Virus record (IMG/VR): IMGVR_UViG_3300012005_000003
Coordinates: 37,401-101,400 of that record
Length of the DNA stretch: 64,000 nt
Strand: one strand, 5' to 3'
DNA from: a virus
The notes below the pieces were generated by a model. It made no database searches, was not told the origin of the DNA, and saw only the letters and a program-made list of their open reading frames with translations. The position numbers and the translations under genes are program-made. Positions 31,950 to 61,743 of the stretch are shown here, piece after piece. Position 1 is the stretch's first letter. Each line of letters begins with the position of its first letter.

Positions 31950-33274
31950 AACATATTCATAATAGGAATCATATCATCATATATCTCTTTCAAAGTAATA
32001 GATATAGATTTCTTTTTAGATTCTTCTATCCATTTAGAACAAAACATGTCCCAAAAGAATTTATAAAACCTGTCATTCGCCTTATCTATTTCATAATTAT
32101 CTAAATGTTCATATATTTCATTTTTGATGTTCAACCATATAGATCCATATTCTTCTTTCTTTCCAATCCATTCGTTATCTATCTGCATGTCTATGAACAG
32201 TTTTGCATTTTTAAATTTATTTATGATCTTCCAACCCATCTTCATCTTCTGCTCATCAATTTTAGTGTCAGTTCCTAACGTATTAGAAAATGCCCAGTAT
32301 CTTATACCAGATTGCCCATATTTTTCAAGCATTGGTTCACATGCTGTTGCATTGCCTGATGATTTACTAAACTTGTCACCTTTGCCATCAAGGGTGTGTC
32401 CAGTGATCATCAAAGTCTTCCAAGGTATTTGATTATTGATAAAGTAAGACATAGCTATAGTATAGAATGCCCAAGTTCTGATGATGTCATGAGACTGGAA
32501 TCTCATATCGAATATTGGACATTCCAACATATCATTATATCCTCTATCTGCAGACCAAGCAATCTGAGGCGTTAATGCAGAAATGAACCAAGTATCAAAA
32601 GTGTATGTTTCATCTCCTGGTATATTTATACCGAAATTTCTTTCTCTTGAAATGGACCAATCCCACTGGATATTATCGCACCAATCATCAAACCTCTTTT
32701 TGTATTTTTCGGGTTTCCAATTAATCTTACTACCCATCTCTTTTATCTGAGAAATATGATCCTTGATATTGATGAACCAACCTTCTCCGGTTTTGATAAT
32801 TGGAGTTTCACCAGTTCTTTCTATGAGTCCTTTATCGTCAAGTTCAGATTGTGATATAGATGTTTTTAATTGCTCAGACCATAAATATTCAGTAGTCTTT
32901 TTGTAAGCTATGCCTTTCTCTTTCAATATTTCAAAAGCTTGATATGCAATATCTATAGCAGTTTTATCATAAGTGTGATATTGATGATTCGAGAATTCTA
33001 TACCACTGTTTTTGAATTCTTTTTTATAGTCTTCTGATTTATCTATAGCAAAGCTTATTATATTCTCTTTACCCATTATGCCATTTTTAGATGCGAGTTT
33101 TCCTGTAGGGATGCCATTACAGTCGAAACAGAAAGGATATAGAAGCTCTCTACCTTTTAATTTCTGATACTGCGCAATAAGATCTCCTTGAGTGTAAGAG
33201 AATATATGACCTATGTGTAATTTTCCTGATATAGTAGGAGGTGGAGTGTCGATTAAGAATTTATTTGTTTTCAT
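31937..33274 (-). CDS. Half-length valyl-tRNA-synthetase-like class I protein
   Basis: 446 residues from the ATG at 33274; the frame extends to 33358, but that part includes the upstream terminator. TPPPTISGKLHIGHIFSYTQ is the ValRS/IleRS-type HIGH region, WDWSISRERNFGI and DTWFISALTPQIAW are typical ValRS core motifs, and GDKFSKSSGN is the KMSKS loop with F for M. Cellular ValRS has about 880-950 residues. The editing insertion seems mostly absent and the anticodon-binding region is short. It may aminoacylate or merely bind tRNA-Val; T4 handles the same host enzyme through its Vs modifier. Activity is inferred. Confidence 0.75.
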   Translation of the reverse strand: MKTNKFLIDTPPPTISGKLHIGHIFSYTQGDLIAQYQKLKGRELLYPFCFDCNGIPTGKLASKNGIMGKENIISFAIDKSEDYKKEFKNSGIEFSNHQYHTYDKTAIDIAYQAFEILKEKGIAYKKTTEYLWSEQLKTSISQSELDDKGLIERTGETPIIKTGEGWFINIKDHISQIKEMGSKINWKPEKYKKRFDDWCDNIQWDWSISRERNFGINIPGDETYTFDTWFISALTPQIAWSADRGYNDMLECPIFDMRFQSHDIIRTWAFYTIAMSYFINNQIPWKTLMITGHTLDGKGDKFSKSSGNATACEPMLEKYGQSGIRYWAFSNTLGTDTKIDEQKMKMGWKIINKFKNAKLFIDMQIDNEWIGKKEEYGSIWLNIKNEIYEHLDNYEIDKANDRFYKFFWDMFCSKWIEESKKKSISITLKEIYDDMIPIMNMFYRK

Positions 33275-33302
33275 GATTTTTGGTTTTAGTTTTTTGTTTA
33301 AT

Positions 33303-33332
33303 AAAAAAGTCCAACATTTATAATGTTGGACT
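33303..33332 (-). terminator. Terminator downstream of the endonuclease-like gene
   Basis: AGTCCAACATT pairs with AATGTTGGACT; on the minus strand it is followed by TTTTTTATT. It separates the gene ending at 33442 from the synthetase-like gene. Confidence 0.75.
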
Positions 33333-33441
33333 CTATATAATAGATATGTGCACAACATCAGACTCGAGTTGTGACAATGACAGTATTTAAAGCAAAAATA
33401 GATTTCATTTTACAAATATACAACTATATATTCAGATTATT

Positions 33442-35247
33442 TCAATTGTTAATAACTTTATTTTCATAAATATACAAGTTACTTCCTGTGTCATAACACC
33501 TTTCGTATCCATTATCTGCCATGATCTCAAATTCAGTCTGATCAATCGTACCCAATCCTTTATCAACTAATGAACTTTTGGTGAAACCAAAACGATGATA
33601 CCTAATACCATTTTTCACATACCAGTAGTTTGGAACAGTCGTCTTCGAATAAGAAAATCCGATCTTCTCATAGACATTGTCTGATAAACTCGACCAATCT
33701 AGTGAAGCATAGCTGAACACCGATATAGGATTTATTTCCTTTAGAAAATGTCTGAATAATCTGCTAGCACCTCCGATCACATTAAGATCTATCTTGTTAC
33801 AGAACCTTAATAATTCATAAACACCTTCTTCTACAATTCTACCTGTAACTCTCCTTCCATGCCCGAATGACATCATCGATACAGGTTCATCATTATACAC
33901 AAGAGTATATACTATTTTAGAACCAACGAAACCTTGAATATGGTTGTCTTCCATGAACTCTTTGTAGATAGAATAATCTTCCACTTTCACGATCTTGCAT
34001 TTCCTGGCATATATCTTTTCTGATATCAAGCCTAACATGTTCCTGATCCTTGATTTGACTATCGATTTCCTTTCCATCCAATCGTCTTCCCATATATGAA
34101 CTAGATTGATGCCTTTGTCATGAGCCAATTTCTTCTTATCTATGTGGTAGTTCTTGTCTTTGAATTTATCTGAATGCCAGTAGACTCCGTTGTATTCGAA
34201 TGCAACATTTTTAGAAGGGATAAAACAATCAAGCTCTAAGCCTATCTGGGCTCTATCGTTGGATATACAATCTTGATTTAAAGATCTAACATAATCTGTA
34301 AGTTCTTTTTCACATATAGAGCCAATGTTTACAGGATTGCATATAATACAAGGATTTTCAATTTTGTTAACTTTAACCCTTTGTGAAAAGAAAGCTGCAT
34401 TGATTTCGTAAATGTGATTATGTATACAACAAACAGTCATTATTCCGTTTTCACATTTTTTAATATCATGATTTGGGAATTTTATTAAATAATTTTCGTA
34501 TTCAATTTTATTCCTTGTTTCAGCAGTTTTTATTTTTACTTCTTTGTTCTGAGCAGTACTTTTAGCTCCATATCTTTCCAGATTTGTTTTTTCCGCTTTA
34601 TCTTTAATGCTTTCATGTTTAGCAGCATTAGTGACTCCATACCTTTCTAGATTCGTTTCAACAATCTTATTTTTGACAATATCTGAACTGAATGTATGAT
34701 CAACTCCGTATCTCTCCTGATTAGTTGAAATCATTTTATCCATCACCTCTTTGTTTCCTGCAGGAGTATCAGAACCATATCGCTCTTGATTGGTAGTTTT
34801 AACCTTGTCCTTTTTGGATTGTAATTTAGCTGTATTGGTTACACCGTATTTCTTTAGGTTATTCTTTTTGATTGTATCCTGAACCTCTTTGGACTGCGAT
34901 GGATTCAGAACACCATAAGTATCCATCATTGTTTGTTCGCGCTTTCTGATCGTCTCTGGATGACTCTGGCTGCATTTAGAAGAACATGTTTTACTGTAAC
35001 CTGTATTTGTAGATAAAAATGTTACTTTTTTAATTTTACACACTTCACATAAAACATCATCAGGTAATTTGTGATAATAATGGTAAAGCCTTTCTGAAAA
35101 TGATGAATATGGATCTAAATTTTTTGTATAGTCTAATATAGCATCATAAAATTCAGGAAAATTAGTAGATATAAAGCTTTGTCTTGCTTTAGAATTGAAG
35201 GTTCCGTCTTCTTTGGTTATGATTGAAAGCTCTTGTTGGAATTGCAT
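33442..35247 (-). CDS. Vsr/PD-(D/E)xK-type homing-endonuclease-like protein (copy 1)
   Basis: 601 residues. N-terminal Cys pairs (CEVCKIKKV, CSSKCSQ) suggest a zinc knuckle. Residues about 110-240 hold tandem units of the form TNxERYGVxxxAKxxxxKxK. A nuclease-like core follows: GLELDCFIPSKNVAFEYNG and VYWHSDKF, then HIWEDDWMERK, similar to Vsr-related phage homing endonucleases. The C-terminal domain (IYARKCKIV, HIQGFVGSKIVYTL) may recognise DNA. It lies beside the major capsid gene, a common site for mobile endonucleases in T4-like phages. No intron or inteln boundary is visible. Confidence 0.65.
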   Translation of the reverse strand: MQFQQELSIITKEDGTFNSKARQSFISTNFPEFYDAILDYTKNLDPYSSFSERLYHYYHKLPDDVLCEVCKIKKVTFLSTNTGYSKTCSSKCSQSHPETIRKREQTMMDTYGVLNPSQSKEVQDTIKKNNLKKYGVTNTAKLQSKKDKVKTTNQERYGSDTPAGNKEVMDKMISTNQERYGVDHTFSSDIVKNKIVETNLERYGVTNAAKHESIKDKAEKTNLERYGAKSTAQNKEVKIKTAETRNKIEYENYLIKFPNHDIKKCENGIMTVCCIHNHIYEINAAFFSQRVKVNKIENPCIICNPVNIGSICEKELTDYVRSLNQDCISNDRAQIGLELDCFIPSKNVAFEYNGVYWHSDKFKDKNYHIDKKKLAHDKGINLVHIWEDDWMERKSIVKSRIRNMLGLISEKIYARKCKIVKVEDYSIYKEFMEDNHIQGFVGSKIVYTLVYNDEPVSMMSFGHGRRVTGRIVEEGVYELLRFCNKIDLNVIGGASRLFRHFLKEINPISVFSYASLDWSSLSDNVYEKIGFSYSKTTVPNYWYVKNGIRYHRFGFTKSSLVDKGLGTIDQTEFEIMADNGYERCYDTGSNLYIYENKVINN

Positions 35248-35277
35248 GTATAAATTTACTAATTATTTTTGAGTAAA

Positions 35278-36969
35278 TTAAATTTTTACTCTATGATTAT
35301 AGGTGTAAAGGTTGGATCCAGAATCGTATATCATGTTACAATCATTATCATTTATGGTATTTTTATCTATACCAAGACGATGGTAACGAATTCTATTTTT
35401 GATATACCAATTACTGGGAACTGTTGTTTTGAAATATTCAAAACCCAATTTTTCATATACTGTATCATTTAAATTTGACCAATCTAGTGAAGCATAACTG
35501 AATACTGATATAGGGTTTATTTCCTTTAGAAAATGTTTAAATAGTTTACTTGCGCCACCTACAATATTTGTATCAATCTTATTACAAAACCTTAAAAGCT
35601 CATAAACATCTTCCTCTTTTTTCTTGCCTGTTATCATTCTAGCATGACCAAAAGACATCATTGAAACAATAATACCATTATACACAAGAGCATAAACAAT
35701 CTTTGAATTGACAAATCCCTGTATATGATTCTCCTCCATAAAATCTTTATATACTGTTAAATCTTCAACTTTAACAATTTTACATTTTCTGGCATAGATA
35801 CGTTCTGAAGTGTAACCTAGTATATTTTTAATCCTGGATTTAACTATATGCTTCTTCAATATCCAGATATCTTCCCATACATGTATAAGATTTATGCCTT
35901 TTTCATAAGCCTTTTTCTTTTTGTCTATATGGTAGTTTCTGCCTTTGAATTTATCAGAATGCCAGTAAATTCCATTATATTCTATAGCAATATTTTTTGA
36001 AGGAATATAACAATCTAATTCTCTTCCTATCTGTTCTCTGTCATTTATTATACATTCATCTCCGAATGATTTTATATAATCTATGAGTTCTTTTTCAGCA
36101 ATAGATCCAACATCAATTGGATTACATATAACACATGGATTTTCTACACCATATCTTCTGGTTCTCTGTCTAAAATCTCCTGTGTATATTTGATAATCAT
36201 GTCCATTTATACATGTAATAGTTAGTATGCTTTTATTAGTAGCTTTTATTTTAAATTCAGGATATTTAAGTATATATTTTTCAAGTTCTTTTTTATTATT
36301 TTTTATAGAAGCTTTATTTTTTACTATATCACTTTTTGCAGCATTTTCATGACCGTATTTTTCTAGATTTGTTTTGGCCATTTTGTCTTTGACCACTTGA
36401 TTCTGAGCTACATTTTCGTGACCATATTTTTCTAAGTTGGTTTTCTTAGCTTTATCTCTAACTTCTTTACTACCTGTAGGAGAATTTGAACCGTATCTCT
36501 CTTGGTTTGTCGCATTAGTTTTATCTCTTACTGTTTTCAGTTTTGCTGTATGAGTCACTCCGTATTTTGCAAGATTATTCTTCTTTATGGTTTCTTGGAC
36601 CTCTTTGGATTGTGATGGACTTGTCACTCCGTATTTTTCCATGAAAGAATTTTGTAAATTCTTTTTTGTTTCTGGATGATTCATGCTGCATTTAGGTCCG
36701 CAAGTTCTTGTATATCCTTTATTGATACTTAGAAATGCACATAGATCTTTTTTGCATACTGGGCAAACAACGGTATCAGGTATTTTGTAAATATAGTGGT
36801 ATATCTTTTGTGAAAATTTATCTCCTACTGTTATATCTTTGGTATATTCTAATATAGCTTTATGGAATTCTGGATATAATGAAGATATGCGAGGTTCTCT
36901 GATCTTTCCGTTTGAGAAATCTTCAGAGTCTTCCTTTTTTAGTTCGTTTATTATTTCTTTAAAATCCAT
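35278..36969 (-). CDS. Vsr/PD-(D/E)xK-type homing-endonuclease-like protein (copy 2)
   Basis: 563 residues, colinear with the neighbour at 33442: CPVCKKDLCAF zinc knuckle, repeats such as TNLEKYGHENVAQNQ, core RELDCYIPSKNIAIEYNG, IYWHSDKF and HVWEDIWILK, and the same C-terminal domain (IYARKCKIVKVEDLT). Adjacent paralogues imply duplication; the DNA is more AT-rich than copy 1, so the copies have diverged or arrived separately. Predicted sequence-specific nuclease. Confidence 0.65.
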   Translation of the reverse strand: MDFKEIINELKKEDSEDFSNGKIREPRISSLYPEFHKAILEYTKDITVGDKFSQKIYHYIYKIPDTVVCPVCKKDLCAFLSINKGYTRTCGPKCSMNHPETKKNLQNSFMEKYGVTSPSQSKEVQETIKKNNLAKYGVTHTAKLKTVRDKTNATNQERYGSNSPTGSKEVRDKAKKTNLEKYGHENVAQNQVVKDKMAKTNLEKYGHENAAKSDIVKNKASIKNNKKELEKYILKYPEFKIKATNKSILTITCINGHDYQIYTGDFRQRTRRYGVENPCVICNPIDVGSIAEKELIDYIKSFGDECIINDREQIGRELDCYIPSKNIAIEYNGIYWHSDKFKGRNYHIDKKKKAYEKGINLIHVWEDIWILKKHIVKSRIKNILGYTSERIYARKCKIVKVEDLTVYKDFMEENHIQGFVNSKIVYALVYNGIIVSMMSFGHARMITGKKKEEDVYELLRFCNKIDTNIVGGASKLFKHFLKEINPISVFSYASLDWSNLNDTVYEKLGFEYFKTTVPSNWYIKNRIRYHRLGIDKNTINDNDCNMIYDSGSNLYTYNHRVKI

Positions 36970-37078: not shown

Positions 37079-38761
37079 TTACACTAAGTAAGATAAAGGA
37101 TCAGTTACTTTAATTGTTAAGTATTGTTTTTGAGGGAAGAATCCGCCTTCAACAACAGCGTAACGAGAACGTAAAAATAATCTTGGTGCTCTAGTTGCTT
37201 CAGAAATTAAACTGATTGATTGTGCCATTAAGTAAGGTACGAATACGATACCTGGTTGATCAACTTCGTTACGACGGCCTAACACAACACGATTATCATC
37301 ATACTTCATGTATGGATCAACGTAAACTTGAATACCTGCAATTTGTCCTACTGGATATAATTGACCGTTAGTGTTCATGTTTCCTTTAACAGGACTGATT
37401 GTGTAAGCAGCAGCATCAGATAAAGCAGCAGCGATACGGCCGTTAGTTACTAAATAAGTAGCAGGCCCGATTCGTCCTTCAGAAGCAATAAAGTTGCTAC
37501 CAGCAAATATTTTAGAACATAACTTACGCTGTATAGCATGAGTAGTTTCACCTTGAGGTCCACCAGCAGCTAAGTAAGCAGTATCTAAGTCGAAAATTGT
37601 ACCTGTGCCCATAACTGGAGCAGCAGCTCTGTTTAATTCTCCCATTTGGAAAATCTTCTCAACAATTTGACGAGAGATAGTTTGAGATAATTCATTAACT
37701 AAAACTGATTCTAATTTCTGAACGATGTCGATTCCTGTTTGAGATTTGATATCTTCCATCTCTGTACGCTTTAAAGCAGAAGAGATTTCGATAGTACCAA
37801 CAGTTACACGCTTAGTAGAAACGTTTGGAGCGATAATTCCTGGGTAGTTCATATCATCTTCTTGACGAGACATTGGGTAAGACTTGTTCCAGTTAGAAAC
37901 GAAACCTGGGATATGGTCTTCCATAGCTGAAATTAATTCAACAGATGCTGTAGTAAAAGCACCAGTAGGAACAGCAGTTGTAGCAACACCGTTAACTGTT
38001 GTTGGAGCAGCAAAACCTAAATTAATAACATCAGAAACTACTTCTGTTATTGTAAATGTGTTTTTACTACCATCGAATGTATAACTACCAGCAGAAGCTG
38101 TGTTATTCTGACGATATGATCTTAACATTGGCAAACCATCGATACGAGAGTATCCTAAGAACTCTAATACATGTGTTTTAGAAACTGAAGGCTCAATTAA
38201 AGCATCAGCTAAAGTAATACCAGTTATTGAAACAAATATACGTTTGTTTAATCCACCTTGAGATAATACAGCGCCAGCATTAGCAATTAAAGCATTTAAG
38301 AAAGTTTTAGCAGTTGCCATGTCAGCAGTACCGAAACGAATTTTGAACACTTGAGGTCTTTCGTCTGTTCCATCTGGAGTATCATCGTAACGATAGTCTA
38401 CGTAGAATAAGTCTATAACTGGTCCTGGAGTTGGTTTAACAGGAACTAAGTCTAAACCGATTGTTTGTGCAGCAACTTTCATTGAAGCAGCTAACAATTG
38501 TTGACCTAAGTCACCTGAACCTACTGCACCACTTGCTGTATAAGCAGCACCTGGGATTGTACCTGCGGTTGGAGAAATAACTGCGCCCATACCTGAAACG
38601 TTAGCGTTGTTCGCGTAAGCGATGTTCTCATTTAATTGGTGATATTCTGCATACTCAGCCATCCATGACTTTTTGTAACTGTCAGTTCCAACACCTAAGC
38701 TCTCGATAATCGGAGCCCATTTTTTTTCGATTTTTTTCTTGTCGATTTGAACGTGGTTCAT
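37079..38761 (-). CDS. gp23: Major capsid protein, T4 gp23 family
   Basis: 560 residues (T4 gp23 has 521). The start KKWAPIIESLG, KSWMAEYAEYHQLNENIAYAN and NVSGMGAVISPT follow the gp23 pattern. QLNE|N after residue 45 is the expected gp21 cleavage point (T4 cuts gp23 after residue 65). Ala-rich central regions and the end VVEGGFFPQKQYLTIKV are typical of the mature shell domain. Codon use is more GC-rich and regular than neighbours, fitting very high expression. Upstream lies a TATATA late-promoter box; downstream a terminator. Confidence 0.93.
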   Translation of the reverse strand: MNHVQIDKKKIEKKWAPIIESLGVGTDSYKKSWMAEYAEYHQLNENIAYANNANVSGMGAVISPTAGTIPGAAYTASGAVGSGDLGQQLLAASMKVAAQTIGLDLVPVKPTPGPVIDLFYVDYRYDDTPDGTDERPQVFKIRFGTADMATAKTFLNALIANAGAVLSQGGLNKRIFVSITGITLADALIEPSVSKTHVLEFLGYSRIDGLPMLRSYRQNNTASAGSYTFDGSKNTFTITEVVSDVINLGFAAPTTVNGVATTAVPTGAFTTASVELISAMEDHIPGFVSNWNKSYPMSRQEDDMNYPGIIAPNVSTKRVTVGTIEISSALKRTEMEDIKSQTGIDIVQKLESVLVNELSQTISRQIVEKIFQMGELNRAAAPVMGTGTIFDLDTAYLAAGGPQGETTHAIQRKLCSKIFAGSNFIASEGRIGPATYLVTNGRIAAALSDAAAYTISPVKGNMNTNGQLYPVGQIAGIQVYVDPYMKYDDNRVVLGRRNEVDQPGIVFVPYLMAQSISLISEATRAPRLFLRSRYAVVEGGFFPQKQYLTIKVTDPLSYLV

Positions 38762-38846: not shown

Positions 38847-41078
38847 TTACTTTAGCCTATCGAACTTGTTTAACATTGATTGGATTTGGCTTTCGTTTAA
38901 TAGATCATTGTCTATTAAATTAGTTCCTAATACTTTCTTTGATTCAACAATCGGTTCAGCTGTGTTGAACTTACGTGTTGCCCAGAAATGTTCCATTTTG
39001 TCTTGAGTGTCTATAGAATAGAACTTAGATTGTGCGATAACAGATCTTTGTGCATTTACGTCCAACGATTCCCATAACGGTTTAATGCTAGATGGGATGT
39101 TTTTGATCAATCTTTCTTCTTGAGTTTCAGCTTCAACAGATAATGCTTTGTGCATGATTTTCAAAACGTCAGTCTTAGAGAAGTATCCGTTGCTTTCTTT
39201 TATTGCAACAATAACTGTTTCTTGTTCTTCGTTTGATAACTGTTTGAAGTTTTTGATCTCGCTTTCGTTTAAGAAAGTGAAGAAATGTGGCTCTTCTTGT
39301 TTGGAGGCTTCTCGTTTTTTAGTCTCCAGGATAAGCGCCTGTATGCTTTCGGTCAAATTTTTAGATTCGATAACTTCTTCCTCTGCAGGAACAAGTTCAT
39401 TCTCTTGTTTTAATACTTGTTCACCTGAGTTTGTTAACTCGATAGTGATACCTTCTTCTCCGATGTTGATAACTTTACCAACTTCAGTAGTTCCGTCGAT
39501 CTTAACTACCATGTCCATGCAGATTCCACATATTGGCTCGATAGCTGCAACAACTGGAGCTTCTTCACCTTCTTTAGAAACAACTGGCTCAGTTGCAGGT
39601 TCAGAGATGATTTTAGTTAAAGTAACTTCTGCTTCAGGAGTTTCTTCCTCTTCTTCATCTTCCTCAGTTGATGGATTCTCAACAGTGATGTCCATAAATT
39701 CGATGATAGATTGGATAGGCTCTGTAGCAGTAGACTCGTTTACGTTCTTGCTGTTTAAACCTTCTACTAATTTCACATTGTAACCGATAGTTTTATCTAA
39801 AGATTCTGCAATGTATTTAGTGTAGTCGATGTTGTCTCCAACGTTCTCAGCGATGTACTGAGCATAAAGAACTGTACTGTCTAAGTTCTCAGCTAAATAG
39901 TTAGAGAAGTCGATAGAGTTCTTTGTGTTTTCAGCAACATATTCAGAGAATTCGATAGATGCGTTCAAGTTCTCAGCTAAATAGTTAGAGAAGTCGATAG
40001 ATCCTTTTAAGTTCTCAGCGATATATTCGCCGTAAGAGATTGCCTTATCAACGCTCTCTGCTAAGTAGTTTTGATACTTGATAGAGCTTTTTAAGTTCTC
40101 TGCGATGTAGTCGCCAAAAGAGATTGCATTATCTACATTCTCAGCAACGTACTTCACGTAGCCGATTGCCTTTTCTAAATCCTTAGAAAGGTTTTCGTTC
40201 TTTTCAACTAACATTGTAGTTGTTTCCTTCAGAGCTTTATTCTCGATGAAGAATGTGCTCATGTTTTCTGCTAGGTAGTCTAGGTAACTTGATACCTTCT
40301 CCTGTGCATGCAATAATGATTCGTACTGAGCTATCATGTTGGTCATCTTATCGAAATCAGGCATTGCGCCAGTTTTTGAAGCTGTTTGTTTGATTTCAGC
40401 TGCTAAGTTTTCGATAGTTTCCTTGATGTACTCTGAGTACTCAGTCAACTGCATTTTAGTTACTAAGTCTTTGTTGTCGTTCATGTGAAACATTTCATTT
40501 ATTTTTGATTCGTCTACCACTTCGATAATGCGGAAGTTACTGTTGTTGCTAAAGCCTAAAGATTCGTTCATAGATTTTGATTCCATGCGGGCTTCAGCAA
40601 ATCCAGGATCTGCCACTATGTCATAAGTGAATAGTTTTTTTATTGTTACTTCCTTGTTGGATTCAGTAACACCAGCAGCTCTTGAAGAAACGAAGATAGG
40701 ATCTCCGTCATCTACCAATGCACGTGCTTCCTTACCGAAGTAAGTGGTTAATAATTTGATATCACCGTATACAGCATTCTTCTCTTTCACATAATATGCA
40801 TTAAGCAATTTGTGAGAGATACGGCTCATGCTTGTATCGAAATTTTCTGGATGGTCGAATTCTCCATAAACAACACCTGGCTTGGTGTTGATTCTGTACA
40901 TCATCTCTTCTAAATGTGGAAGGAATTTCTCAGCTTTGTAGATTCTGTTGTTTCGGTTCTCTTCGTTGAACAAGGTCAATAACCCTGTCATCGTGTAGTT
41001 CTTTTGGCCTTGAGGATTGACAGACTCGTTCAGCTTCATAGCTTCTAGTGTGTTGTCAAAAATTAATACTTGCTTCAT
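38847..41078 (-). CDS. gp21: Prohead protease (gp21 family) fused to scaffold-like domain
   Basis: 743 residues; T4 gp21 has 212. Residues 35-165 are the protease: NRNNRIYKAEKFLPHLEEM, GEFDHPENF (His76), MSRISHKLLNA and IFVSSRAAGV (Ser131/132), as in the herpes-like gp21 family. LNE|S at residues 16-18 is a likely self-processing site. From 200 to 445 it is helical, with nine exact 14-residue repeats (Y-[IVL]-A-E-[NS]...SI-x-[FY]) at 310-435. Then come an acidic stretch (EEDEEEEETPEAE), a small domain and a C-terminal helix (LLNESQIQSMLNKFDRLK). The repeat part resembles the function of T4 scaffold gp22, which is cut into small peptides. The fusion is seen directly; function is inferred. Confidence 0.88.
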   Translation of the reverse strand: MKQVLIFDNTLEAMKLNESVNPQGQKNYTMTGLLTLFNEENRNNRIYKAEKFLPHLEEMMYRINTKPGVVYGEFDHPENFDTSMSRISHKLLNAYYVKEKNAVYGDIKLLTTYFGKEARALVDDGDPIFVSSRAAGVTESNKEVTIKKLFTYDIVADPGFAEARMESKSMNESLGFSNNSNFRIIEVVDESKINEMFHMNDNKDLVTKMQLTEYSEYIKETIENLAAEIKQTASKTGAMPDFDKMTNMIAQYESLLHAQEKVSSYLDYLAENMSTFFIENKALKETTTMLVEKNENLSKDLEKAIGYVKYVAENVDNAISFGDYIAENLKSSIKYQNYLAESVDKAISYGEYIAENLKGSIDFSNYLAENLNASIEFSEYVAENTKNSIDFSNYLAENLDSTVLYAQYIAENVGDNIDYTKYIAESLDKTIGYNVKLVEGLNSKNVNESTATEPIQSIIEFMDITVENPSTEEDEEEEETPEAEVTLTKIISEPATEPVVSKEGEEAPVVAAIEPICGICMDMVVKIDGTTEVGKVINIGEEGITIELTNSGEQVLKQENELVPAEEEVIESKNLTESIQALILETKKREASKQEEPHFFTFLNESEIKNFKQLSNEEQETVIVAIKESNGYFSKTDVLKIMHKALSVEAETQEERLIKNIPSSIKPLWESLDVNAQRSVIAQSKFYSIDTQDKMEHFWATRKFNTAEPIVESKKVLGTNLIDNDLLNESQIQSMLNKFDRLK
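39774..40151 (-). repeat. Nine tandem 42-bp (14-aa) repeats in the scaffold domain
   Basis: Units such as YIAENLKSSIKYQN and YLAENLNASIEFSE repeat without gaps nine times. Each is two heptads long and carries V/I/L-A-E before Asn or Ser, the pattern cut by gp21-type proteases. Confidence 0.9.
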
Positions 41079-47276: not shown

Positions 47277-48398
47277 CTAGACATGCTTAATTTTATTTCT
47301 TAAACCGAAATTCTTGATATTGTTTGCAGCATTGATATCTCTATCATGTTCAATACCACATTTACAAGTCCATTCTCGATCCTTCAATGTCAGTTCTTTA
47401 TTGATTATACCACAATTTGAACATGTTTTTGATGATGGTTCGAATCTACCTATGAATATTAGATTTTTTCCATACCATTCAGTTTTATATTCAAGCTGTC
47501 TTCTGAACTCACTCCAGCTAACATCCTGAATGGCTTTAGCTAAACAATGATTTTTCATCATCCCATCAACATTCAAGTCTTCTAGAACTATCGTGTTATA
47601 CTTCTTGGTTATCGAAGTTGTTATTTTATGCAGATTATCTACACGTTGGTTTTTTATTTTCTCGTGTATTTTAGCAACTTTAAGTTTCTGTTTTTTATAC
47701 CCATTGCTTTGTTCTTTTTGTCCTTTCTTAAATCGTCTAGACAAAGTCCTTTGTTCAATTCTTAATTGCTTTTGTGCCTTTTTATACCATCTAGGATTCT
47801 CAAACTTGGTTCCATCAGAAAGTATAGCTAAATCTTTAATTCCTAGATCTATACCTATGGTTGTATTTTCGTCTATTTCAGGTTTAGTTGGACCATCTAT
47901 TCCAGTATCAACCTGGATAGATATAAAATATTTACCAGTTGTTGATTTGCTAACTGTGCAAGTTTTTATAATGCCTTCAAATGTCCTATCGATAATGATA
48001 GGTACCCATTTAAGTTTTGGTATAAATATTTTACTATTTTCTAAATCTATTTTTACATGTTGAGGTAGTTGGAATGATTGTTTAGAGTGTTTGTTTTTAA
48101 ATTTAGGAAATCCTTTGCCTTTGAAGAAAGCTGTATAAGCATTATCCAGATTGTTTAAGGACATCTGCAATGCCTGACTAGGACTGTCTTTCAACCATGA
48201 ACATTGTTCTGTTTGTTTAAGCTCTGTCACTTGTTTGTTTAAATCAAAACAGCTCAAATTAACTCTAGCACTAGTGTATGCTGAAATCTTAGTTTCTAAA
48301 CCTAGATTATAGACGTACCTGACAGAACCAAATATACATTTCAGTTGCTCTGTCTGGAGCAAATTAGGATATATTCTATATTTAAAGGCTTTTATCAT
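47277..48398 (-). CDS. tnpB: TnpB, RNA-guided RuvC nuclease of IS200/IS605 family
   Basis: 373 residues, normal length. Opens MIKAFKYRIYPNLLQTEQLK, the family signature. RuvC residues lie in GIDLGIKDLAIL (Asp, about residue 185), VLEDLNVDGM (Glu, about 275) and DRDINAANNI (Asp, about 357). The zinc ribbon is CSNCG ... CKCG (about 332-352). All catalytic residues seem present, so the enzyme should be active. No TnpA transposase is nearby; mobility would need a helper in trans. Confidence 0.93.
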   Translation of the reverse strand: MIKAFKYRIYPNLLQTEQLKCIFGSVRYVYNLGLETKISAYTSARVNLSCFDLNKQVTELKQTEQCSWLKDSPSQALQMSLNNLDNAYTAFFKGKGFPKFKNKHSKQSFQLPQHVKIDLENSKIFIPKLKWVPIIIDRTFEGIIKTCTVSKSTTGKYFISIQVDTGIDGPTKPEIDENTTIGIDLGIKDLAILSDGTKFENPRWYKKAQKQLRIEQRTLSRRFKKGQKEQSNGYKKQKLKVAKIHEKIKNQRVDNLHKITTSITKKYNTIVLEDLNVDGMMKNHCLAKAIQDVSWSEFRRQLEYKTEWYGKNLIFIGRFEPSSKTCSNCGIINKELTLKDREWTCKCGIEHDRDINAANNIKNFGLRNKIKHV

Positions 48399-49938: not shown

Positions 49939-50406
49939 TTAATTATTAAATTCACCTTTAAGTTTCACATAATCAGGAAGTTTTAATTCAACTTCATTCT
50001 CGCCACAATTAAGATCTCCTCCTATATTTTTAGAGCACCCATCCAAAGATATTAATTGATTAACACAACAATTAAAATTTTTTCCTACACTATGTGGACT
50101 ATTTTCCAATGACATTAATTGATTATGATTGCAATCAAAATCTCCTGTTATTTCAATATCTTTAAACCATACAGGAAATGTTGTCCAATCTTCTCCATCT
50201 AAATAAACATTACCTTTCACTTTCTTAAGCTTGACAAACTTAGCATCAACATCCATGAATGATGAATCAAGATTTAAAGGTCCTTCTATCACTTCCTGAG
50301 AAAGTAACTTGATGTTCATTTGCATTCTTTTTACTTTCCTCTCTTCAATGTTGCGAGGAACTAACAGGTTTTCATTTACGAATTGTTTAAAATTTGTTAT
50401 GATCAT
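49939..50406 (-). CDS. Capsid-tagged leucine-rich-repeat protein (copy 2)
   Basis: 155 residues. MIITNFKQFVNENLLVPRNI and the conserved 60-residue segment (LLSQEVIEGPLNLDSSFMDV) precede about two repeats (NQLMSLENSPHSVGKNF; NQLISLDGCSKNIGGDL) and the LELPDYVKLKGEF-type end. Its repeats are the most diverged of the set. It directly precedes the larger fused copy on the strand. Confidence 0.8.
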   Translation of the reverse strand: MIITNFKQFVNENLLVPRNIEERKVKRMQMNIKLLSQEVIEGPLNLDSSFMDVDAKFVKLKKVKGNVYLDGEDWTTFPVWFKDIEITGDFDCNHNQLMSLENSPHSVGKNFNCCVNQLISLDGCSKNIGGDLNCGENEVELKLPDYVKLKGEFNN

Positions 50407-50419
50407 GTTCTATATTTTT

Positions 50420-52261
50420 TTAATTTTTAAATTGACCTTTCAATTTAACATAATTAGGAAGTTCTAATTCGCCTTTATTATTTTGGCAATAAAAATCTCC
50501 TCCTACATTTTCAGGACAACCTTCCAAAGTTGTTAATTCATTACTTGTACAACTAAAATTTCCTCCTATGTATTCAGGACATCCTTGCAAAGATGTTAAT
50601 TTGTTATTATAACATTGAAAACTTCCATTTATATTATCTGGACTTCCTTCCAGAGATGTTAAATCATTATATGAACAACCAAAATCTCCTCCTATCTTCC
50701 GTGGACAGTTTTTCAATGTAGTTAATTTATTATTATAACAATTAAAATCGCCATTTACTTCAACATCTTTCAGCCATGCAGGTATTTCAGTCCATTGTTC
50801 TCCTGTTAACCAAACATCTCCATTAACTTTTTTCAGTTTTACGAACTTTGGATCTATGTCCATGAAGGATTCATCAAGCTTAAGTTCTCCATCTATCACT
50901 TCCTGAGAAAGCAGCTTGATGTTAATCTGCTTGAGCTTCTCCTTGCGCCCTTCCAGGTTACGAGGAACTAACAGGTTTTCATTTACGAATTGTTTAAAGT
51001 TTGTTATGATTTTACTTTCTCCTAATTTATTTTGTGCTATATCATGTTTGATATCTTTAACGATATCGTTTATCTCTTTTGTTGCATTTTTATCTCCTGA
51101 TAAAATGTTCTTCATTATAGCATTAAACTCTTTAGCTGGTTTAGAAGATAAAACAGCTATAATATTATTTTTGTATTCTTCGTTTCTGCTATCGTATATA
51201 GCATCATTCAATCTCTGCCAGAATCCAGGCCCTAGTCTCAGAGCCATTCTTTCAGAAGCTAAAGAATCTGCAGCTTTTATAACTTTTGTTCTTTCTTCAC
51301 TTGATAATGAATCATGTGACATCAATAATTCTGTAACTCCTTTTGCCAATTCGTGAATCAGGAATGGAAACGATGTTGCAGTTACAATGATTTTTGGAGT
51401 ATCATCCTGAAGATCCAATTTTATTTTACCAACACTTGATTCTTCTCCTCCGAAGTTATCAGGAACTACCCAGTATCCGTATTCAGACATCACGCTTAAT
51501 ATAGAATACATATCTACTAAACCTGGATGAATCTTTTTAAGTCCATCAGAAATCAAATGATATGCATATGTAGTTTTTACTGCAGAACCATGAATAAGAC
51601 TGTTGATGAATTTTCTCTTTTCCACTTCAAGCTCCAAACCAGTTAAATCATCTGCTATTTCTTCTGCATCTTCATCGTCTATGTCAGATAATGAAATCTC
51701 ACCATGTTTTATCATCTTGGCTTCGAAATCTACATCATCTTCTGATATATTAAATTCTTTACAGATAAGATCTATTGCAAGTTTTTCCAAATCTTCTATA
51801 TGATCAGCTTCTATCTCGACAACTTCATTGTAAACTTTCATCAACAACATCTGAAGATCCATCATATTTTCTATATCAATATGTTTGTCGTGTACATATG
51901 ACTGTAACTTATCAACTATCTCTTTGAATCTCTCATCAGCTATAATCTTATCAAAATCTTCATTTGGATAAGCTGGGTTTTTTGCCAAACTGTGAGTTTT
52001 AGATTTCAAAGATTTGTCTATATCAGAGTGTCTCTTGTGAGACATAGCTTCGTTTAAAACTTCTGATATAAGCTTGTATGCTTTTGGCTTTGGAGATTCT
52101 TTTGGATCTCTTTTTCCAGGTTTGAATGGATTGATCGAAGGCTTAGTTGCAGGTTCTGCAATCTTTGGTTCACTTGGAGCAATCAAAGGTTGAGGCTCTT
52201 TTGTGTTCTTTTCGTTTAATCTCTTTTTAAAGTTTGTAAAATCTGATAATTTTTTAAACAT
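50420..52261 (-). CDS. Prohead-core-like protein fused to a leucine-rich-repeat cargo domain
   Basis: 613 residues. Residues 1-416: tag MFKKLSDFTNFKKRLNEKNT (LNE|K), a Pro-rich acidic linker with SEVLNEAMS as another site, helical regions and a conserved domain with HPGLVDMYSILSVMSEYGYW and FPFLIHELAKGVTELLMSH. From about 418 a complete second tag appears internally, IITNFKQFVNENLLVPRN, followed by four 21-residue leucine-rich repeats. The join is in-frame without a stop. Position near the portal suggests a core or internal head protein, as T4 gp67/gp68 lie between gp20 and gp21. Protease action at VNE|N would release the repeat domain. Confidence 0.75.
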   Translation of the reverse strand: MFKKLSDFTNFKKRLNEKNTKEPQPLIAPSEPKIAEPATKPSINPFKPGKRDPKESPKPKAYKLISEVLNEAMSHKRHSDIDKSLKSKTHSLAKNPAYPNEDFDKIIADERFKEIVDKLQSYVHDKHIDIENMMDLQMLLMKVYNEVVEIEADHIEDLEKLAIDLICKEFNISEDDVDFEAKMIKHGEISLSDIDDEDAEEIADDLTGLELEVEKRKFINSLIHGSAVKTTYAYHLISDGLKKIHPGLVDMYSILSVMSEYGYWVVPDNFGGEESSVGKIKLDLQDDTPKIIVTATSFPFLIHELAKGVTELLMSHDSLSSEERTKVIKAADSLASERMALRLGPGFWQRLNDAIYDSRNEEYKNNIIAVLSSKPAKEFNAIMKNILSGDKNATKEINDIVKDIKHDIAQNKLGESKIITNFKQFVNENLLVPRNLEGRKEKLKQINIKLLSQEVIDGELKLDESFMDIDPKFVKLKKVNGDVWLTGEQWTEIPAWLKDVEVNGDFNCYNNKLTTLKNCPRKIGGDFGCSYNDLTSLEGSPDNINGSFQCYNNKLTSLQGCPEYIGGNFSCTSNELTTLEGCPENVGGDFYCQNNKGELELPNYVKLKGQFKN

Positions 52262-52979: not shown

Positions 52980-54632
52980 TTAAGAAGCTGGTTGTTCAGG
53001 TTGTTCAGGTTGTTCTGCTGGAGCTTCTGCAGCTGGAGCTTCTGCAACCGGTTCTTCACCAGCTGGTTCTGCAGCTATTTCCTCGGTTGGAACTTGTCCA
53101 AGTTTTCTCATTTTCGCTTTTTTGTTCTCTTCTATCTCAATATCAGTCAGTTTTAAAATCCTCTTGATCAAGTAATCTATATCGAAGTATGACTCTGGAG
53201 CTTCTTTTGGAATATTGGTTAATAGATTTGCAAGAATGTTTGCTCTCTTTTCCAAGATACCAATCTCTTTCCACTCTTCGAACATGTTGTTCTGATTGAA
53301 ACGAACATTGATAGAATTTATAAAAGAAGCATCGTTCTTCAATTCTGGAAATTCTAATAAAGTCTGTATGATCAAAGGTTTCACAATGATCTCTTTGAAC
53401 ATAGCTCTCAATCTGGATACAAAATTAGTAAATCTCATTTCATCACGAGTCACCTCTGATGCATCAGAGAATATGTTACCACCACCAGTTGAGCCATCAA
53501 GACGTGATGCCGGAACTTTTGAACTTCTCTTCAGAGCTCCCATGAACCAGTTCAACATGGATTCTTCGTTAAGATCTGCCGTATCTGGTTTTATCATTTC
53601 TATACTAGGAGTTCCAGATTCAGATTCAGGAAACCACCATTGTTTACTGAAAGGTATATGAGCTGAACCATTGATTGATACTGTTCCCATTTCATCATTA
53701 AATGATACTTCATCTTTGTAATCAGCTATCAACTGTCCTATCTCTTCCTCTGCTCTGGTTTTTGATAAACCTCCAACAGGGATGATGAACTTCTGATACA
53801 TTGTAGCATTCATGATATTGAACATGATACGAGACTGTTCTATCAATTTCAACTGATTGTAAGGCCGTATTAAATTCTCAACATAACTGGTTTCGAAAAT
53901 ACCAATGCTGTTGTTTCCAGAATATGCCAGATATATGATAGAAGAATCCAACATGATTTTTCTATTTTGTATATCGTTAGGATGTTGTATCCATACTTTC
54001 TTTCCTGACATAGGTTCTACCGCAGGAACCAGTGTTGCAGGATCCAACATTTTTATATCTATGATCACCTTCTGTCTGTCATCGTATACAATCTCGAAAG
54101 CCAAGTAACCATCGACAATGAATTGTCTGAAATAGTTCCATGCTGTGATACCATCGTTAAATCCTAGTGTATTGTACACTTGTTCGAATATCTGATAATA
54201 ACGGTCTTTTACTTTCTTTGCTACATTCTCTTTGAGATCTACAGGGAAACAGAATTTTGATCCATCGTCATAATCTATTGCATCATCACAAACTATTGTG
54301 ATATACTCACTGATCTCACCTTTGACAGAATACTGTCTCAATATCTTCTGTTTTTCAGTATATGCAAAATTCAAAAATGCAACAGATTTCTTTTCTAGAA
54401 CTTTAGAAACAGCTCTTCTTGAAAAAATATCATACATGCTACCAGATGTAGCAAGAGTATTAGGATCTTCATTTATTCCAGTTGCACTAGAATTCTTGAG
54501 GATCATATCATCGTATTTCATACCCCAGTTCCATGAGGAAAGATCTCTCAATACTTTATTGTAGAAAGATTTATTGCCTATGTTACTAGGTGAGTACTGT
54601 ATCTGACGATATGGGTTTGCTGATCCTGCCAT
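52980..54632 (-). CDS. gp20: Portal protein, T4 gp20 family
   Basis: 550 residues (T4 gp20 524). Core motifs: WNYFRQFIVDGYLAFEIVYD, LDPATLVPAVEP, EQSRIMFNIMNATMYQKFII, the PVGGLSKTRAEEEI region, and KVPASRLDGSTGGGNIFSDA with the following EVTRDEMRFTNFVSRLRAMF. These are the conserved wing and stem segments of T4-type portals. The C-terminus is an unusual Ala/Glu/Pro tail (EEPVAEAPAAEAPAEQPEQP). The dodecamer forms the DNA-packaging vertex. Confidence 0.9.
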   Translation of the reverse strand: MAGSANPYRQIQYSPSNIGNKSFYNKVLRDLSSWNWGMKYDDMILKNSSATGINEDPNTLATSGSMYDIFSRRAVSKVLEKKSVAFLNFAYTEKQKILRQYSVKGEISEYITIVCDDAIDYDDGSKFCFPVDLKENVAKKVKDRYYQIFEQVYNTLGFNDGITAWNYFRQFIVDGYLAFEIVYDDRQKVIIDIKMLDPATLVPAVEPMSGKKVWIQHPNDIQNRKIMLDSSIIYLAYSGNNSIGIFETSYVENLIRPYNQLKLIEQSRIMFNIMNATMYQKFIIPVGGLSKTRAEEEIGQLIADYKDEVSFNDEMGTVSINGSAHIPFSKQWWFPESESGTPSIEMIKPDTADLNEESMLNWFMGALKRSSKVPASRLDGSTGGGNIFSDASEVTRDEMRFTNFVSRLRAMFKEIIVKPLIIQTLLEFPELKNDASFINSINVRFNQNNMFEEWKEIGILEKRANILANLLTNIPKEAPESYFDIDYLIKRILKLTDIEIEENKKAKMRKLGQVPTEEIAAEPAGEEPVAEAPAAEAPAEQPEQPEQPAS

Positions 54633-54646: not shown

Positions 54647-55204
54647 TTATGTGAAGCTTTGCCAGAAAGAGAAAGAAGCTTCTAATCTTTTTAATTCTTC
54701 TTTCATAGCTTCTATATTGATTGCTACATCTCCTGGTAATTTATAAGTATAAGTTTCTAACATATTTATTAGATCCATTTTACATAGAATTACACAATAG
54801 TCTTTGAACAATTGTGTAGCAGCGATGAAATCATCTCCAACATATTTGACAACCATTGCATTGAGTTCATCATGTCTGATATGATCCAAAATAGTCAATA
54901 TATTATTTGTTGTATTATAAAAGAATTTCTTTGTATTATCAGTTTCGTTTCTTACATTGACTGATACAACTGTTAAAACATCTCTACCAAGGTGAGCTTG
55001 TTGAGTCAATAATTCGAAATTATCTTTCAATGATATATTTTCATAATATCCAGCAAATTTGCTATTCTTTTTGAAATAATCTAAAGCTCTGTCGATGTTC
55101 ATATCGATCATATCGACAGAAAATAATTCTGGTAATTTACATCCATAAGTCAATCTTGTTTTAATGTAATATTTTACTTTTTCCAATTGATCTTTATTTT
55201 CCAT
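54647..55204 (-). CDS. Probable virion or assembly protein, 185 aa
   Basis: Mostly helical (NIDRALDYFKKNSKFAGYYE, ATQLFKDYCVILCKMDLINM). No family recognised. Sits between portal and the next structural gene, overlapping it by 11 bases, so it probably belongs to head or neck assembly. Confidence 0.65.
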   Translation of the reverse strand: MENKDQLEKVKYYIKTRLTYGCKLPELFSVDMIDMNIDRALDYFKKNSKFAGYYENISLKDNFELLTQQAHLGRDVLTVVSVNVRNETDNTKKFFYNTTNNILTILDHIRHDELNAMVVKYVGDDFIAATQLFKDYCVILCKMDLINMLETYTYKLPGDVAINIEAMKEELKRLEASFSFWQSFT

Positions 55205-55953: not shown

Positions 55954-56457
55954 TTACTCTTTGATTCTGTTTAAGTGTTTCTCAGTGATGATGTAGAATT
56001 CAAGATCTCTTGCTTTGCAATATTCTTTAGCTCTCTCCCATTTGTATACATTTTTTGTATATGTCTTGATCTGGTATTCGAACGATTCCAGTTTTTTAGA
56101 ATTTGCATTCTTTGGCAACACTGGCGGCTTCGTTTCGTTCAGAGGTTTAACTTCCAACACCATGCGTTTGAATTTGTCTGGGTTGCCGTCTATACACATT
56201 TCAACATAGAAATCAGGATAATACCTGTGAGGTTTACCCATCATGTCGTTATATTTGATCTCTATGAATTCAGCACCCCATCTTGCAACTTTTCCTGTAC
56301 CTGATAAATAATCCAACCATATCATGATCCTTTTTTCCCAGGATGATCTGAAATACAAACCACCTTCATTGTTCAGTTTGATCACCTTGTTTTTGTTCTG
56401 TGGTGTATACAGTCCTTGCTGGTAGTTACCTCTCTGTGTCGGTTTACTATTAAGCAT
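55954..56457 (-). CDS. gp4: Head-completion nuclease, T4 gp4 (50) family
   Basis: 167 residues. QGLYTPQNKNKVIKL, YFRSSWEKRIMIWLD, KPHRYYPDFYVEM and VLEVKPLNET supply the PD-(D/E)xK/TnsA-like residues: Glu of RSSWEK, Asp of PDF and ExK of LEVKP. T4 gp4 is required to finish heads after packaging. All key residues appear intact, in contrast to the copy at 15073. Overlaps the 2H-phosphoesterase gene by 8 bases. Confidence 0.85.
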   Translation of the reverse strand: MLNSKPTQRGNYQQGLYTPQNKNKVIKLNNEGGLYFRSSWEKRIMIWLDYLSGTGKVARWGAEFIEIKYNDMMGKPHRYYPDFYVEMCIDGNPDKFKRMVLEVKPLNETKPPVLPKNANSKKLESFEYQIKTYTKNVYKWERAKEYCKARDLEFYIITEKHLNRIKE

Positions 56458-57121
56458 TTAATACATAATGGAATTTCTGTTTGTCTGCTGTAGAATAAGT
56501 GACGTCTTTTATATCTTCTATAGTGATGACGTCTTTAAATTTCTTTAAATATTTTTCACCAGTTCCTTTCAAGCAATAAGCCAATGTGATATGAGGAACA
56601 TACGCATCGTAATCTGATTTATAAGGAAACTCTTTCAATTCTTCATGAAGAGCTATAAGTTCTTCAGAAGGTATGACTGCGATCTTGACAACATCGAATT
56701 TCTCATTATCGAACATGCTGATTTCTGAAATCTGAACTGTGAAAGGTTCATACTGCATGATCACTTTTTCTACATCTTCTGGAGTTGCTGCATCTTCATC
56801 ATCTTGTTCAGAAACCAAACCGTACAAAGCTGTTATATGGACATCGTCCTGTTTTCCAAATCTGTTCGGGTTTTCAGGATCGTTGTATAAATCTTCATCA
56901 GATATCTCGTCTTGCATCTTTCTGATTATATCTATAGAGTCGCCATTTGTGACATCCAACATCACACATCCGTAACTGTATTTTGCTTTCTCCTCTTTTC
57001 CTTCGTTTAGAAAAATATGATCAGCAATACCAATACGACCTTTTTTATGAATAGTGTTCGAAGCTTCTAAAATTTTAGAAGCTAAAGATCTTTGTTTTAG
57101 AAACCCTTTGAAATCTAACAT
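56450..57121 (-). CDS. Capsid-tagged 2H (LigT-like) phosphoesterase
   Basis: 223 residues. The tag region MLDFKGFLKQRSLASKILEA has ILE|A, and a second site, FLNE|G, follows at residue 40. The body has two HxT motifs, DVHITALYG (residues 95-97) and YVPHITLAYC (177-179), spaced as in 2H phosphoesterases, with EELKEFPYKSDYDAY before the second. The family cleaves 2',3'-cyclic or 2'-5' linked nucleotides. T4 Acb1 is a 2H enzyme that destroys CBASS signals. Processing and anti-defence use are inferred. Confidence 0.8.
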   Translation of the reverse strand: MLDFKGFLKQRSLASKILEASNTIHKKGRIGIADHIFLNEGKEEKAKYSYGCVMLDVTNGDSIDIIRKMQDEISDEDLYNDPENPNRFGKQDDVHITALYGLVSEQDDEDAATPEDVEKVIMQYEPFTVQISEISMFDNEKFDVVKIAVIPSEELIALHEELKEFPYKSDYDAYVPHITLAYCLKGTGEKYLKKFKDVITIEDIKDVTYSTADKQKFHYVLNA

Positions 57122-57159: not shown

Positions 57160-57546
57160 TTACAAATGGTGAAGTCCTTCACCATCATTTGCTCTATCTA
57201 GAGACATTAATCTGATCAAGTTGTCAGGATCACCCTTCTTCTTATGAAGTTCGTTGTAACCTGCTGCAATACCTCGTTTGAAAATTTCTGTGTAGTAAGA
57301 GAATGCATCAGTGTATTTCTCTTCATTGAATTTAGACCAGTTATCGAACAGGTTTAATAATCCTGTCTGTATACAATCCTTACGATCGTCAGGATTGGAA
57401 TACACCATCTTGCGAATTGCTCTGTCTGCAATCTTTTTTAGCATCTCTTCAGCATCTCTGGTTAAAAAACCGTACGCTTTGGAGATCACGATCTGTTTGT
57501 AGATCTCTTTTTTGTCAATATAGAAATTGTTGATATTATCAGCCAT
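57160..57546 (-). CDS. gp55: Late sigma factor, T4 gp55-like
   Basis: 128 residues; T4 gp55 has 185. RKDCIQTGLLNLFDNWSKFN, EEKYTDAFSYYTEIFKRGIA and AGYNELHKKKG match the sigma region-2-like core of gp55 (D.IQxG.l...NF..kY.nafaYfT.i..n....I...K). The usual C-terminal extension that contacts the sliding clamp is short. In T4, gp55 directs polymerase to TATAAATA; here many late genes have TATATA. Strong by context. Confidence 0.75.
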   Translation of the reverse strand: MADNINNFYIDKKEIYKQIVISKAYGFLTRDAEEMLKKIADRAIRKMVYSNPDDRKDCIQTGLLNLFDNWSKFNEEKYTDAFSYYTEIFKRGIAAGYNELHKKKGDPDNLIRLMSLDRANDGEGLHHL

Positions 57547-59854: not shown

Positions 59855-60379
59855 TTAATTTATAAATTTACCTTTTAAATCAACATAATCTGGAAGTTCC
59901 AATTTATATTTGTTTCCATAACAATAAAAATCTCCTCCTATATTTTCAGGACATCCTTCCAGAGATGCTAAATTGTTATAATAACAATCAAAATCACCTC
60001 CTATATTTTCAGGACATCCTTCCAGGGATATTAATCTATTTCTAGCGCACTTAAAACTTCCTCCTATTTCTTTTGGGCAGTTTTTCAGTGTTGTCAATTT
60101 ATTACCTGAACAACTAAAATTACCATTTACTTCAACATCTTTCAGCCACTCAGGAATTTCAGTCCATTCTAATGACGATAACCGAATATTACCATTCACC
60201 TTTTTAAGTTTTACGAACTTTGCATCTATGTCCATGAAGGATTCATTTAGCTCTAAATCTCCATCTATCACTTCCTGAGAAAGCAATCTGATGTTCATCT
60301 GTTTACGTTTTACATGTCTTTCTGCAAGGTTGCGTGGAACCAACAGGTTTTCATTGAATTGTTTAAAGTTTGTTATCAT
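59855..60379 (-). CDS. Capsid-tagged leucine-rich-repeat protein (copy 3)
   Basis: 174 residues. MITNFKQFNENLLVPRNLAE, the conserved segment (SQEVIDGDLELNESFMDI), three 21-residue repeats (NKLTTLKNCPKEIGGSFKC; NRLISLEGCPENIGGDFDC; NNLASLEGCPENIGGDFYC) and the end LELPDYVDLKGKFIN. The last two repeats are almost identical, pointing to recent unit duplication. TATATAGATC precedes the ATG directly. Confidence 0.85.
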   Translation of the reverse strand: MITNFKQFNENLLVPRNLAERHVKRKQMNIRLLSQEVIDGDLELNESFMDIDAKFVKLKKVNGNIRLSSLEWTEIPEWLKDVEVNGNFSCSGNKLTTLKNCPKEIGGSFKCARNRLISLEGCPENIGGDFDCYYNNLASLEGCPENIGGDFYCYGNKYKLELPDYVDLKGKFIN

Positions 60380-61215: not shown

Positions 61216-61743
61216 TTATTTATTTTTAAATTTACCTTTTAATTTTACATAATCAGGAAGTTCTAATTTAACTTTATTATCACTACACCAAAAATCTCCT
61301 CCTATATTTTCAGGACAACCTTTCAGAGATGTTAATTTGTTCCATGAACAATTAAAACTTCCTGCTATATTTTTAGGACATCCTTCCAGAGATGTTAATT
61401 CATTATTATAACACCTAAACTCTCCTCCTATCTTCTGTGGACAGTTTTTCAATATTGTTAATTTATTGTCTGAACATAAAAAACTTCCCAATATTTTCAC
61501 ATCTTTCAACCATTCAGGAATTTCTGTCCATTGGTTTCCTGTTAATGTAACATCGCCATTAACTTTCTTGAGCTTGACGAACTTAGCATCGATATCCATG
61601 AAAGATTCATCAATCTTCAAATCTCCATCAATCACTTCCTGAGAAAGTAATCTGATGTTCATTTGTTTGAGTTTCTCCTTGCGGCCTTCTATATTTCTAG
61701 GGACTAGTAAATTCTCATTTACGAACGTCTTAAAATCTTTCAT
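61216..61743 (-). CDS. Capsid-tagged leucine-rich-repeat protein (copy 4)
   Basis: 175 residues. The tag MKDFKTFVNENLLVPRNIEG differs from the MITNFKQF type but joins the same NLLVPRN segment. Three repeats (NKLTILKNCPQKIGGEFRC; NELTSLEGCPKNIAGSFNC; NKLTSLKGCPENIGGDFWC) and LELPDYVKLKGKFKN end. A tag swap beside a conserved body supports modular exchange. TATATAGATC precedes the ATG. Confidence 0.85.
   Translation of the reverse strand: MKDFKTFVNENLLVPRNIEGRKEKLKQMNIRLLSQEVIDGDLKIDESFMDIDAKFVKLKKVNGDVTLTGNQWTEIPEWLKDVKILGSFLCSDNKLTILKNCPQKIGGEFRCYNNELTSLEGCPKNIAGSFNCSWNKLTSLKGCPENIGGDFWCSDNKVKLELPDYVKLKGKFKNK

Follow-up and report, generated by a model that had tools for sequence, protein, structure and literature searches.

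Predicted head packaging of a 2H phosphoesterase behind a T4-type leader in an uncultured phage

Comparison of its N-terminal tag, of the prohead protease encoded with it and of its relatives gives good support to the prediction that a 2H-superfamily enzyme, encoded among the head genes of an uncultured phage, is loaded into the virion head. Packaging and processing through the tag appear probable. The purpose of the enzyme is a more tentative matter: that it degrades nucleotide signals, as its superfamily and genomic context suggest, falls a little short of an even chance, and the complete statement, that it is a virion cargo enzyme which removes nucleotide alarm signals, is held just as guardedly. 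The initial annotation had proposed a head-packaged anti-CBASS candidate; the packaging half of this proposal stands, and the anti-CBASS half is one that sequence does not decide, the protein lying outside the Acb1 family proper. The window analysed here, a stretch of 64,000 nucleotides, belongs to a virus record of 101.4 kb, and its closest named phage genomes, all records of uncultured phages 460–735 kb in size, are presumably the huge phages described by Al-Shayeb et al. 2020.

The gene and the parts of its product are listed below, with cut positions marked by a vertical bar here and throughout.

56450..57121, minus strand: 2H phosphoesterase gene, an ORF of 223 aa (PF13563, 9e-15; Acb1 model, 2.1e-7; phrog_755, 1.4e-12)
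57095..57121, minus strand: targeting part of the tag, MLDFKGFLK, which shares F4 and F7 with the T4 internal proteins; identical in near relatives L001–L003
57065..57073, minus strand: ILE19 of a possible lineage-specific cut site, ILE|A20, at the position of ITE19|A20 inferred for T4 ipI
57011..57094, minus strand: in-frame 84-nt insert encoding 28 aa, QRSLASKILEASNTIHKKGRIGIADHIF, similar to major capsid protein (MCP) and holding ILE|A; absent from L001–L003
57002..57010, minus strand: LNE40 of the conserved cut site LNE|G41, kept in L001–L003 and of a type enriched in relatives
56453..56974, minus strand: 2H catalytic domain, residues 50–223 (AlphaFold2 model and alignment A2)
56831..56839, minus strand: first HxT motif, H95-I-T97, invariant in 51 sequences
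56585..56593, minus strand: second HxT motif, H177-I-T179, invariant in 51 sequences

The product is a member of the 2H superfamily with predicted phosphodiesterase activity. Its PF13563 match lies above the model cut-off, and two HxT/S motifs and a duplicated alpha-beta fold are present, which bears out the earlier description of two HxT motifs in a LigT-like domain. In the alignment of 51 sequences, F137, V144 and Y174 are invariant as well, and a lysine-rich motif, KxGxGKKY, is conserved. AlphaFold returned pLDDT values >90 across nearly all of residues 50–223, a low-confidence helix at residues 4–24 and disorder at 25–46. A PADLOC search gave weak, meaningless matches only.

The T4 capsid targeting sequence has been defined genetically: ten residues of an internal-protein leader are enough to bring a protein into the head, with a role in targeting for residues 4 and 7 and in cutting for residues 8 and 10, and cleavage by gp21 follows L/I-x-E (PMC9026906). 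The T4 ipI leader, MKTFKEFTSTTTPVSTITE|A (MKTFKEF...ITE|A; locus L091), is cut after residue 19, as inferred from its 76-residue mature form (PMC3012670). F4, F7 and L8 are present in the window protein, with the same targeting aromatics at 4 and 7 in L001–L003, and the leader ends before the folded domain in an L/I-x-E site, LNE|G at residues 38–41, with ILE|A as a further such site at the position of the ipI cut. Both candidate cut sites fall within the low-confidence, partly disordered first 49 residues of the model. The protein thus shares with T4 IPI, IPII and IPIII a short leader, aromatics at 4 and 7, a cut after L/I-x-E and an encoded T4-type protease. It differs in its cargo, which is a 2H-fold enzyme whereas that of the T4 proteins is a small restriction inhibitor; in the window the cut motif is mostly LNE|S/G/N, and at least 20 ORFs are tagged. 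T4-like injected proteins that were found by their leader have been proven to counter restriction (PMC12373910).

The T4 core [FYW]xx[FYW][LIVM]xE occurs within the first 28 residues of 20 of the 99 window ORFs, against a mean of 0.47 and a maximum of 4 in 1000 shuffles, which, like our other shuffle controls, preserve composition and not ancestry; the rate in internal segments outside the scaffold was 1.9%. Five copies of one tagged repeat family, reading ITNFKQF..NENLLVPRN.. followed by repeats of the LTTLKNCPxxIGGxF type, lie at 4261–4722, 49939–50406, 50420–52261 (C-terminal part), 59855–60379 and 61216–61743, and one copy is fused behind another protein with the tag kept inside (KIITNFKQFVNENLLVPRN). 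An IS605-type OrfB/TnpB-like gene (47277–48398; phrog_506, 1.4e-127) lies between tagged genes.

The near relatives L001–L003, with 81% identity to the window protein in the best segment and 93% over aligned columns, read MLDFKGFLK-LNE|GKEEK, the first 13 residues being MLDFKGFLKLNEG, and lack residues 10–37 of the window protein. The insert that makes up this difference matches the window's own Gp23-type MCP at 28.5 bits, with 52% identity over 27 residues (MCP side 37451–37531), and the MCPs of three other huge phages in the same place at 25.4–28.1 bits; the best of 300 shuffles reached 21.9 bits. The ILE|A and LNE|G sites noted in the initial annotation are both present, but of the two LNE|G alone is part of the conserved tag. 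Because ILE|A sits within an insert that near relatives lack, it is not ancestral, and we rejected it as a conserved processing site. On these alignments the double cut site reads as a recent oddity and no design feature of the 2H family. With the frame, a targeting part and a cut site all retained despite the insert, the tag is expected to remain functional.

Another such event may be visible in L001 (5153–5497) and L003 (7835–8179), where a short ORF beginning MENKDQL runs into a near-identical fragment of the phage's own portal (LIADY...GTVSINGSAHIPFSKQWWFPESE), after which a second, diverged copy follows; the window has an intact gene at this position (54647–55204). Fragments of head genes seem to have been copied into neighbouring genes, and this might be linked to a pair of large genes for homing/HNH endonucleases that follow the capsid gene directly on its downstream side (33442–36969; phrog_3339, 1.5e-123 and 3.1e-106). 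A 473-aa ORF at 31937–33358 shows class I aminoacyl-tRNA synthetase signatures by eye (HIGH, KFSKSSGN) and matches phrog_12710, a phrog without known function, at 1.3e-52.

The 2H gene belongs to a late head operon and sits between the genes for a late sigma factor and the portal, with its 3' end inside the start of a head-closure gene. These and the other head genes of the window are as follows.

57160..57546, minus strand: late sigma factor, T4 gp55 type, upstream neighbour of the 2H gene (phrog_234, 3.7e-6)
55954..56457, minus strand: head completion/closure protein, T4 gp4 type, overlapping the 2H stop codon (phrog_218 head closure, 4.7e-35)
52980..54632, minus strand: T4-type portal, gp20 (PF07230, 6.7e-70)
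38847..41078, minus strand: gp21-type prohead protease with a fused scaffold region (phrog_207, 1.2e-26, residues 5–233)
37079..38761, minus strand: major capsid protein, gp23 type (PF07068, 7.2e-30)

A gp21-type protease and a scaffold are thus encoded in the same phage, in one ORF. Its scaffold part holds ten tag-like YxxY(L/I/V)AE(N/S) repeats between residues 265 and 426, most of them 14 residues apart, and FFTFLNES follows at residue 599; a YHQLNE|N site lies near the N-terminus of the major capsid protein. Scaffold repeats of the same type occur 6–8 times in LR756504, LR756502 and LR745206. These repeats resemble the tag FxxF(L)NE|S, and we infer that mimicry of the scaffold lets tagged proteins into the core.

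A scan of viral contigs yielded at least 381 confirmed 2H relatives, of which 80 were kept, and a scan of genome contigs with alignment A1 gave just 29 weaker matches, which suggests that the family is mainly viral. Most stand-alone relatives start with 8–20 residues ending in xE| right before the domain. The site [LIVMF]xE|[ASGN] precedes the domain in 36 of 60 stand-alone relatives, where shuffling predicted 5.6 and gave at most 12 in 1000 trials. On a domain-only tree, the strict tag needs seven changes, at least four of them forced by supported branches, which argues that the tag is not one inherited peptide; fusion to long proteins likewise needs seven changes. A clear tag was not found on the 2H proteins of the protease-encoding LR756508, LR756511, LR756504 and Maribacter phage Colly. 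The idea that tagged 2H genes elsewhere sit among strictly tagged genes found no support within 5 kb, where 2 of 247 other ORFs carried the strict tag; looser (x)FE|S leaders are present on neighbours of the 2H gene in L004 and L006.

Fusions to a DEDDh exonuclease offer a natural comparison of the cut site. In three huge phages, LR745206 (L006), L020 and L031, a tagged 2H domain is followed by the exonuclease in one ORF (PF00929 RNase_T, 2.6e-7 to 5e-7), and the joint reads VESLNE|NKMWYKTIP or INKISESINE|NKMWYKTIP. Separate exonuclease genes begin MKILKFEQINE|NKMWYKTIP or MKHIIGYNQLNE|NKMWYKTIP, and another reads IKRFGQLNE|NNMWYKTIP, or MVSIKRFGQLNE|NNMWYKTIP with one of its two possible starts. 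Whatever the exonuclease leader, (L/I)NE|N and the mature start that follows it stay constant, as a processing site predicts. The 2H–exonuclease loci are L006 (3971–5287), L020 (1061–2374), L031 (4971–6293), L061 and L214.

Longer forms of the 2H protein comprise Portal_Mu–2H–MuF (L043), SAM lyase–2H (L013), CCA-adding enzyme–2H (L033, L038) and large multidomain proteins. Injected polyvalent proteins that include 2H domains were described by Iyer et al. 2017, who suggested that these domains act as RNases or degrade signals (PMC5512222). The fusions to Portal_Mu/MuF and the large multidomain proteins may represent other virion routes for the 2H domain, and the present finding is a T4-leader version of the polyvalent-protein idea. 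The superfamily is the same as that joined there to portal, MuF and multidomain proteins thought to be injected, and so are the purposes proposed; the window 2H protein differs in standing alone, with a T4-type leader and protease as its proposed delivery.

Under the mechanism we propose, MLDFKGFLK...LNE| would act as a capsid targeting sequence like that of a T4 internal protein and bind the assembling scaffold core, and the gp21-type protease would cleave after LNE, possibly after ILE too. The freed phosphoesterase would remain in the head and be injected together with the phage genome. Once inside the new host cell, it would hydrolyse a small nucleotide, either cyclic or 2'-3'/2'-5' linked, most likely in order to clear alarm signals of the CBASS or type III CRISPR type before phage gene expression. 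Against this reading speak the untagged 2H proteins of protease-encoding phages, the scarcity of strict tags near tagged 2H genes elsewhere, the RNA ligases of two huge-phage relatives, the missing counterparts of Acb1 E141 and W147 and the late action of T4 Acb1 (PMC9117128).

An anti-CBASS role for the protein is plausible from its superfamily and genomic context. The Acb1 model gave the window protein 31.2 bits over residues 123–196, barely past the cut-off of 27, and T4 57B 202.7 bits over its full length; the general 2H model gave 55.5 bits for the window protein and 13 for T4 Acb1. A profile comparison with seven T4-type Acb1 sequences returned 97% probability over 78 columns, with F137 and Y171 of the window protein falling on the Acb1 stacking positions W74 and F107. 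Together with the 2H fold and the HxT pair, these aromatics make up the likeness to Acb1, whose gene in T4 also lies in the late region near gene 4. In the 51 aligned 2H sequences no counterpart of the adenine-reading Acb1 pocket residue E141 or of the lid residue W147 was found, and T4 Acb1 for its part has FxxF (MMEFKDF) without a cut site. We therefore rejected the identification of the window protein as Acb1, on the scores and on these pocket residues. An attempt to read the substrate from the fold failed, RNA and cyclic-nucleotide enzymes scoring alike. In profile searches of the PDB, Acb1 and LigT-like proteins matched equally well; Foldseek ranked a Deinococcus cyclic phosphodiesterase, the BCSR5 phosphodiesterase, YjcG and FBB1 Acb1 together; and further structural matches were to the poxvirus cGAMP PDE and 2'-5' PDEs.

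The principal rival, which we consider unlikely but the strongest of those weighed here, is a virion-delivered enzyme for RNA end healing: on tRNA or mRNA that host anticodon nucleases and toxins have cleaved, it would open 2',3'-cyclic phosphates or, in the manner of Usb1, trim the 3' ends, with phage RNA ligases as partners. By E-value the nearest solved structure is the Deinococcus 2',3'-cyclic phosphodiesterase, with LigT and Usb1 close, and the best NCBIfam match is the RNA 2',3'-cyclic phosphodiesterase TIGR02258, at 40.8 bits below its cut-off of 65.7. The likeness to bacterial RNA 2',3'-cyclic phosphodiesterases, LigT and YjcG thus extends to fold and motifs, but the window protein stays under the equivalog cut-offs, belongs to a phage-enriched family and is tagged. 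The lysine-rich KxGxGKKY motif and the CCA-adding enzyme fusions would suit work on RNA, and RNA ligases lie 12–21 kb from the 2H gene in the huge-phage relatives LR756502 and LR745206, which keeps RNA repair a live rival. Against it, the window's 101-kb record, a fragment, yielded no RNA ligase; Iyer et al. observed no linkage of polyvalent-type 2H domains to RNA ligases (PMC5512222); and the need for healing would arise during infection, so that the gain from preloading is less obvious.

Less probable still is a packaged nuclease, in which the 2H enzyme and a co-packaged DEDDh exonuclease would degrade oligoribonucleotides or 2'-5' products at the start of infection. The fusions of targeting sequence, 2H domain and exonuclease in L006, L020 and L031 and the (L/I)NE|N ending of the separate exonuclease leader fit this, but by sequence the exonuclease is near DNA exonucleases of the DnaQ/PolC type, it was not found in the window's record, a 101.4-kb fragment, and in LR756502 it is not adjacent. 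Least probable of all is an ordinary cytoplasmic, late-expressed 2H enzyme whose N-terminal peptide has nothing to do with packaging and serves, for example, as a regulatory or membrane-binding helix. T4 Acb1 was detected as a late activity, reported only from ~15 min after infection (PMC9117128), and several 2H relatives have no tag; such a peptide, however, accounts poorly for the enrichment of the site, its place just before the domain and its recurrence as the internal junction of fusions, or for a tag that is common to many other ORFs and resembles the scaffold repeats.

Head loading of a signal-degrading enzyme, the reading we prefer, would alter when in an infection signal and signal-degrader begin to compete; to our knowledge, the anti-CBASS enzymes described so far are thought of as made during infection. 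If true, it would account for the survival of slow-starting huge phages in the face of fast alarm systems.

Genuine Acb1 proteins of several T4-like phages also start with T4-type leaders: MLKSFSEFTE|A in Aeh1, MLSFKEFLQE|K in L191, MQTFKEFLIE|K in L197 and MKLSKFLE|S in L194. Among 40 dereplicated Acb1 leaders, five contain the T4 core, against 0.15 expected by shuffles, and 11 the aromatic pair (2.6 in shuffles). Because isolated phages, Aeh1 for one, have an Acb1 that begins with a T4-type leader, laboratory phages can serve to test the idea in place of the uncultured phage. Our literature search found no report of virion-packaged Acb1 or 57B. It is conceivable, though we think it improbable, that preloading of signal-degrading 2H enzymes is general in T4-type phages, the 2H family and genuine Acb1 being leadered in many lineages and arriving before transcription, with some huge phages adding an exonuclease that finishes the opened signal. 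Capsid-targeting-like leaders were seen at the Acb1 loci L133, L131, L191, L197 and L204, and in T4 and Proteus phage phiP4-3 the Acb1 gene adjoins a gene annotated as internal virion protein.
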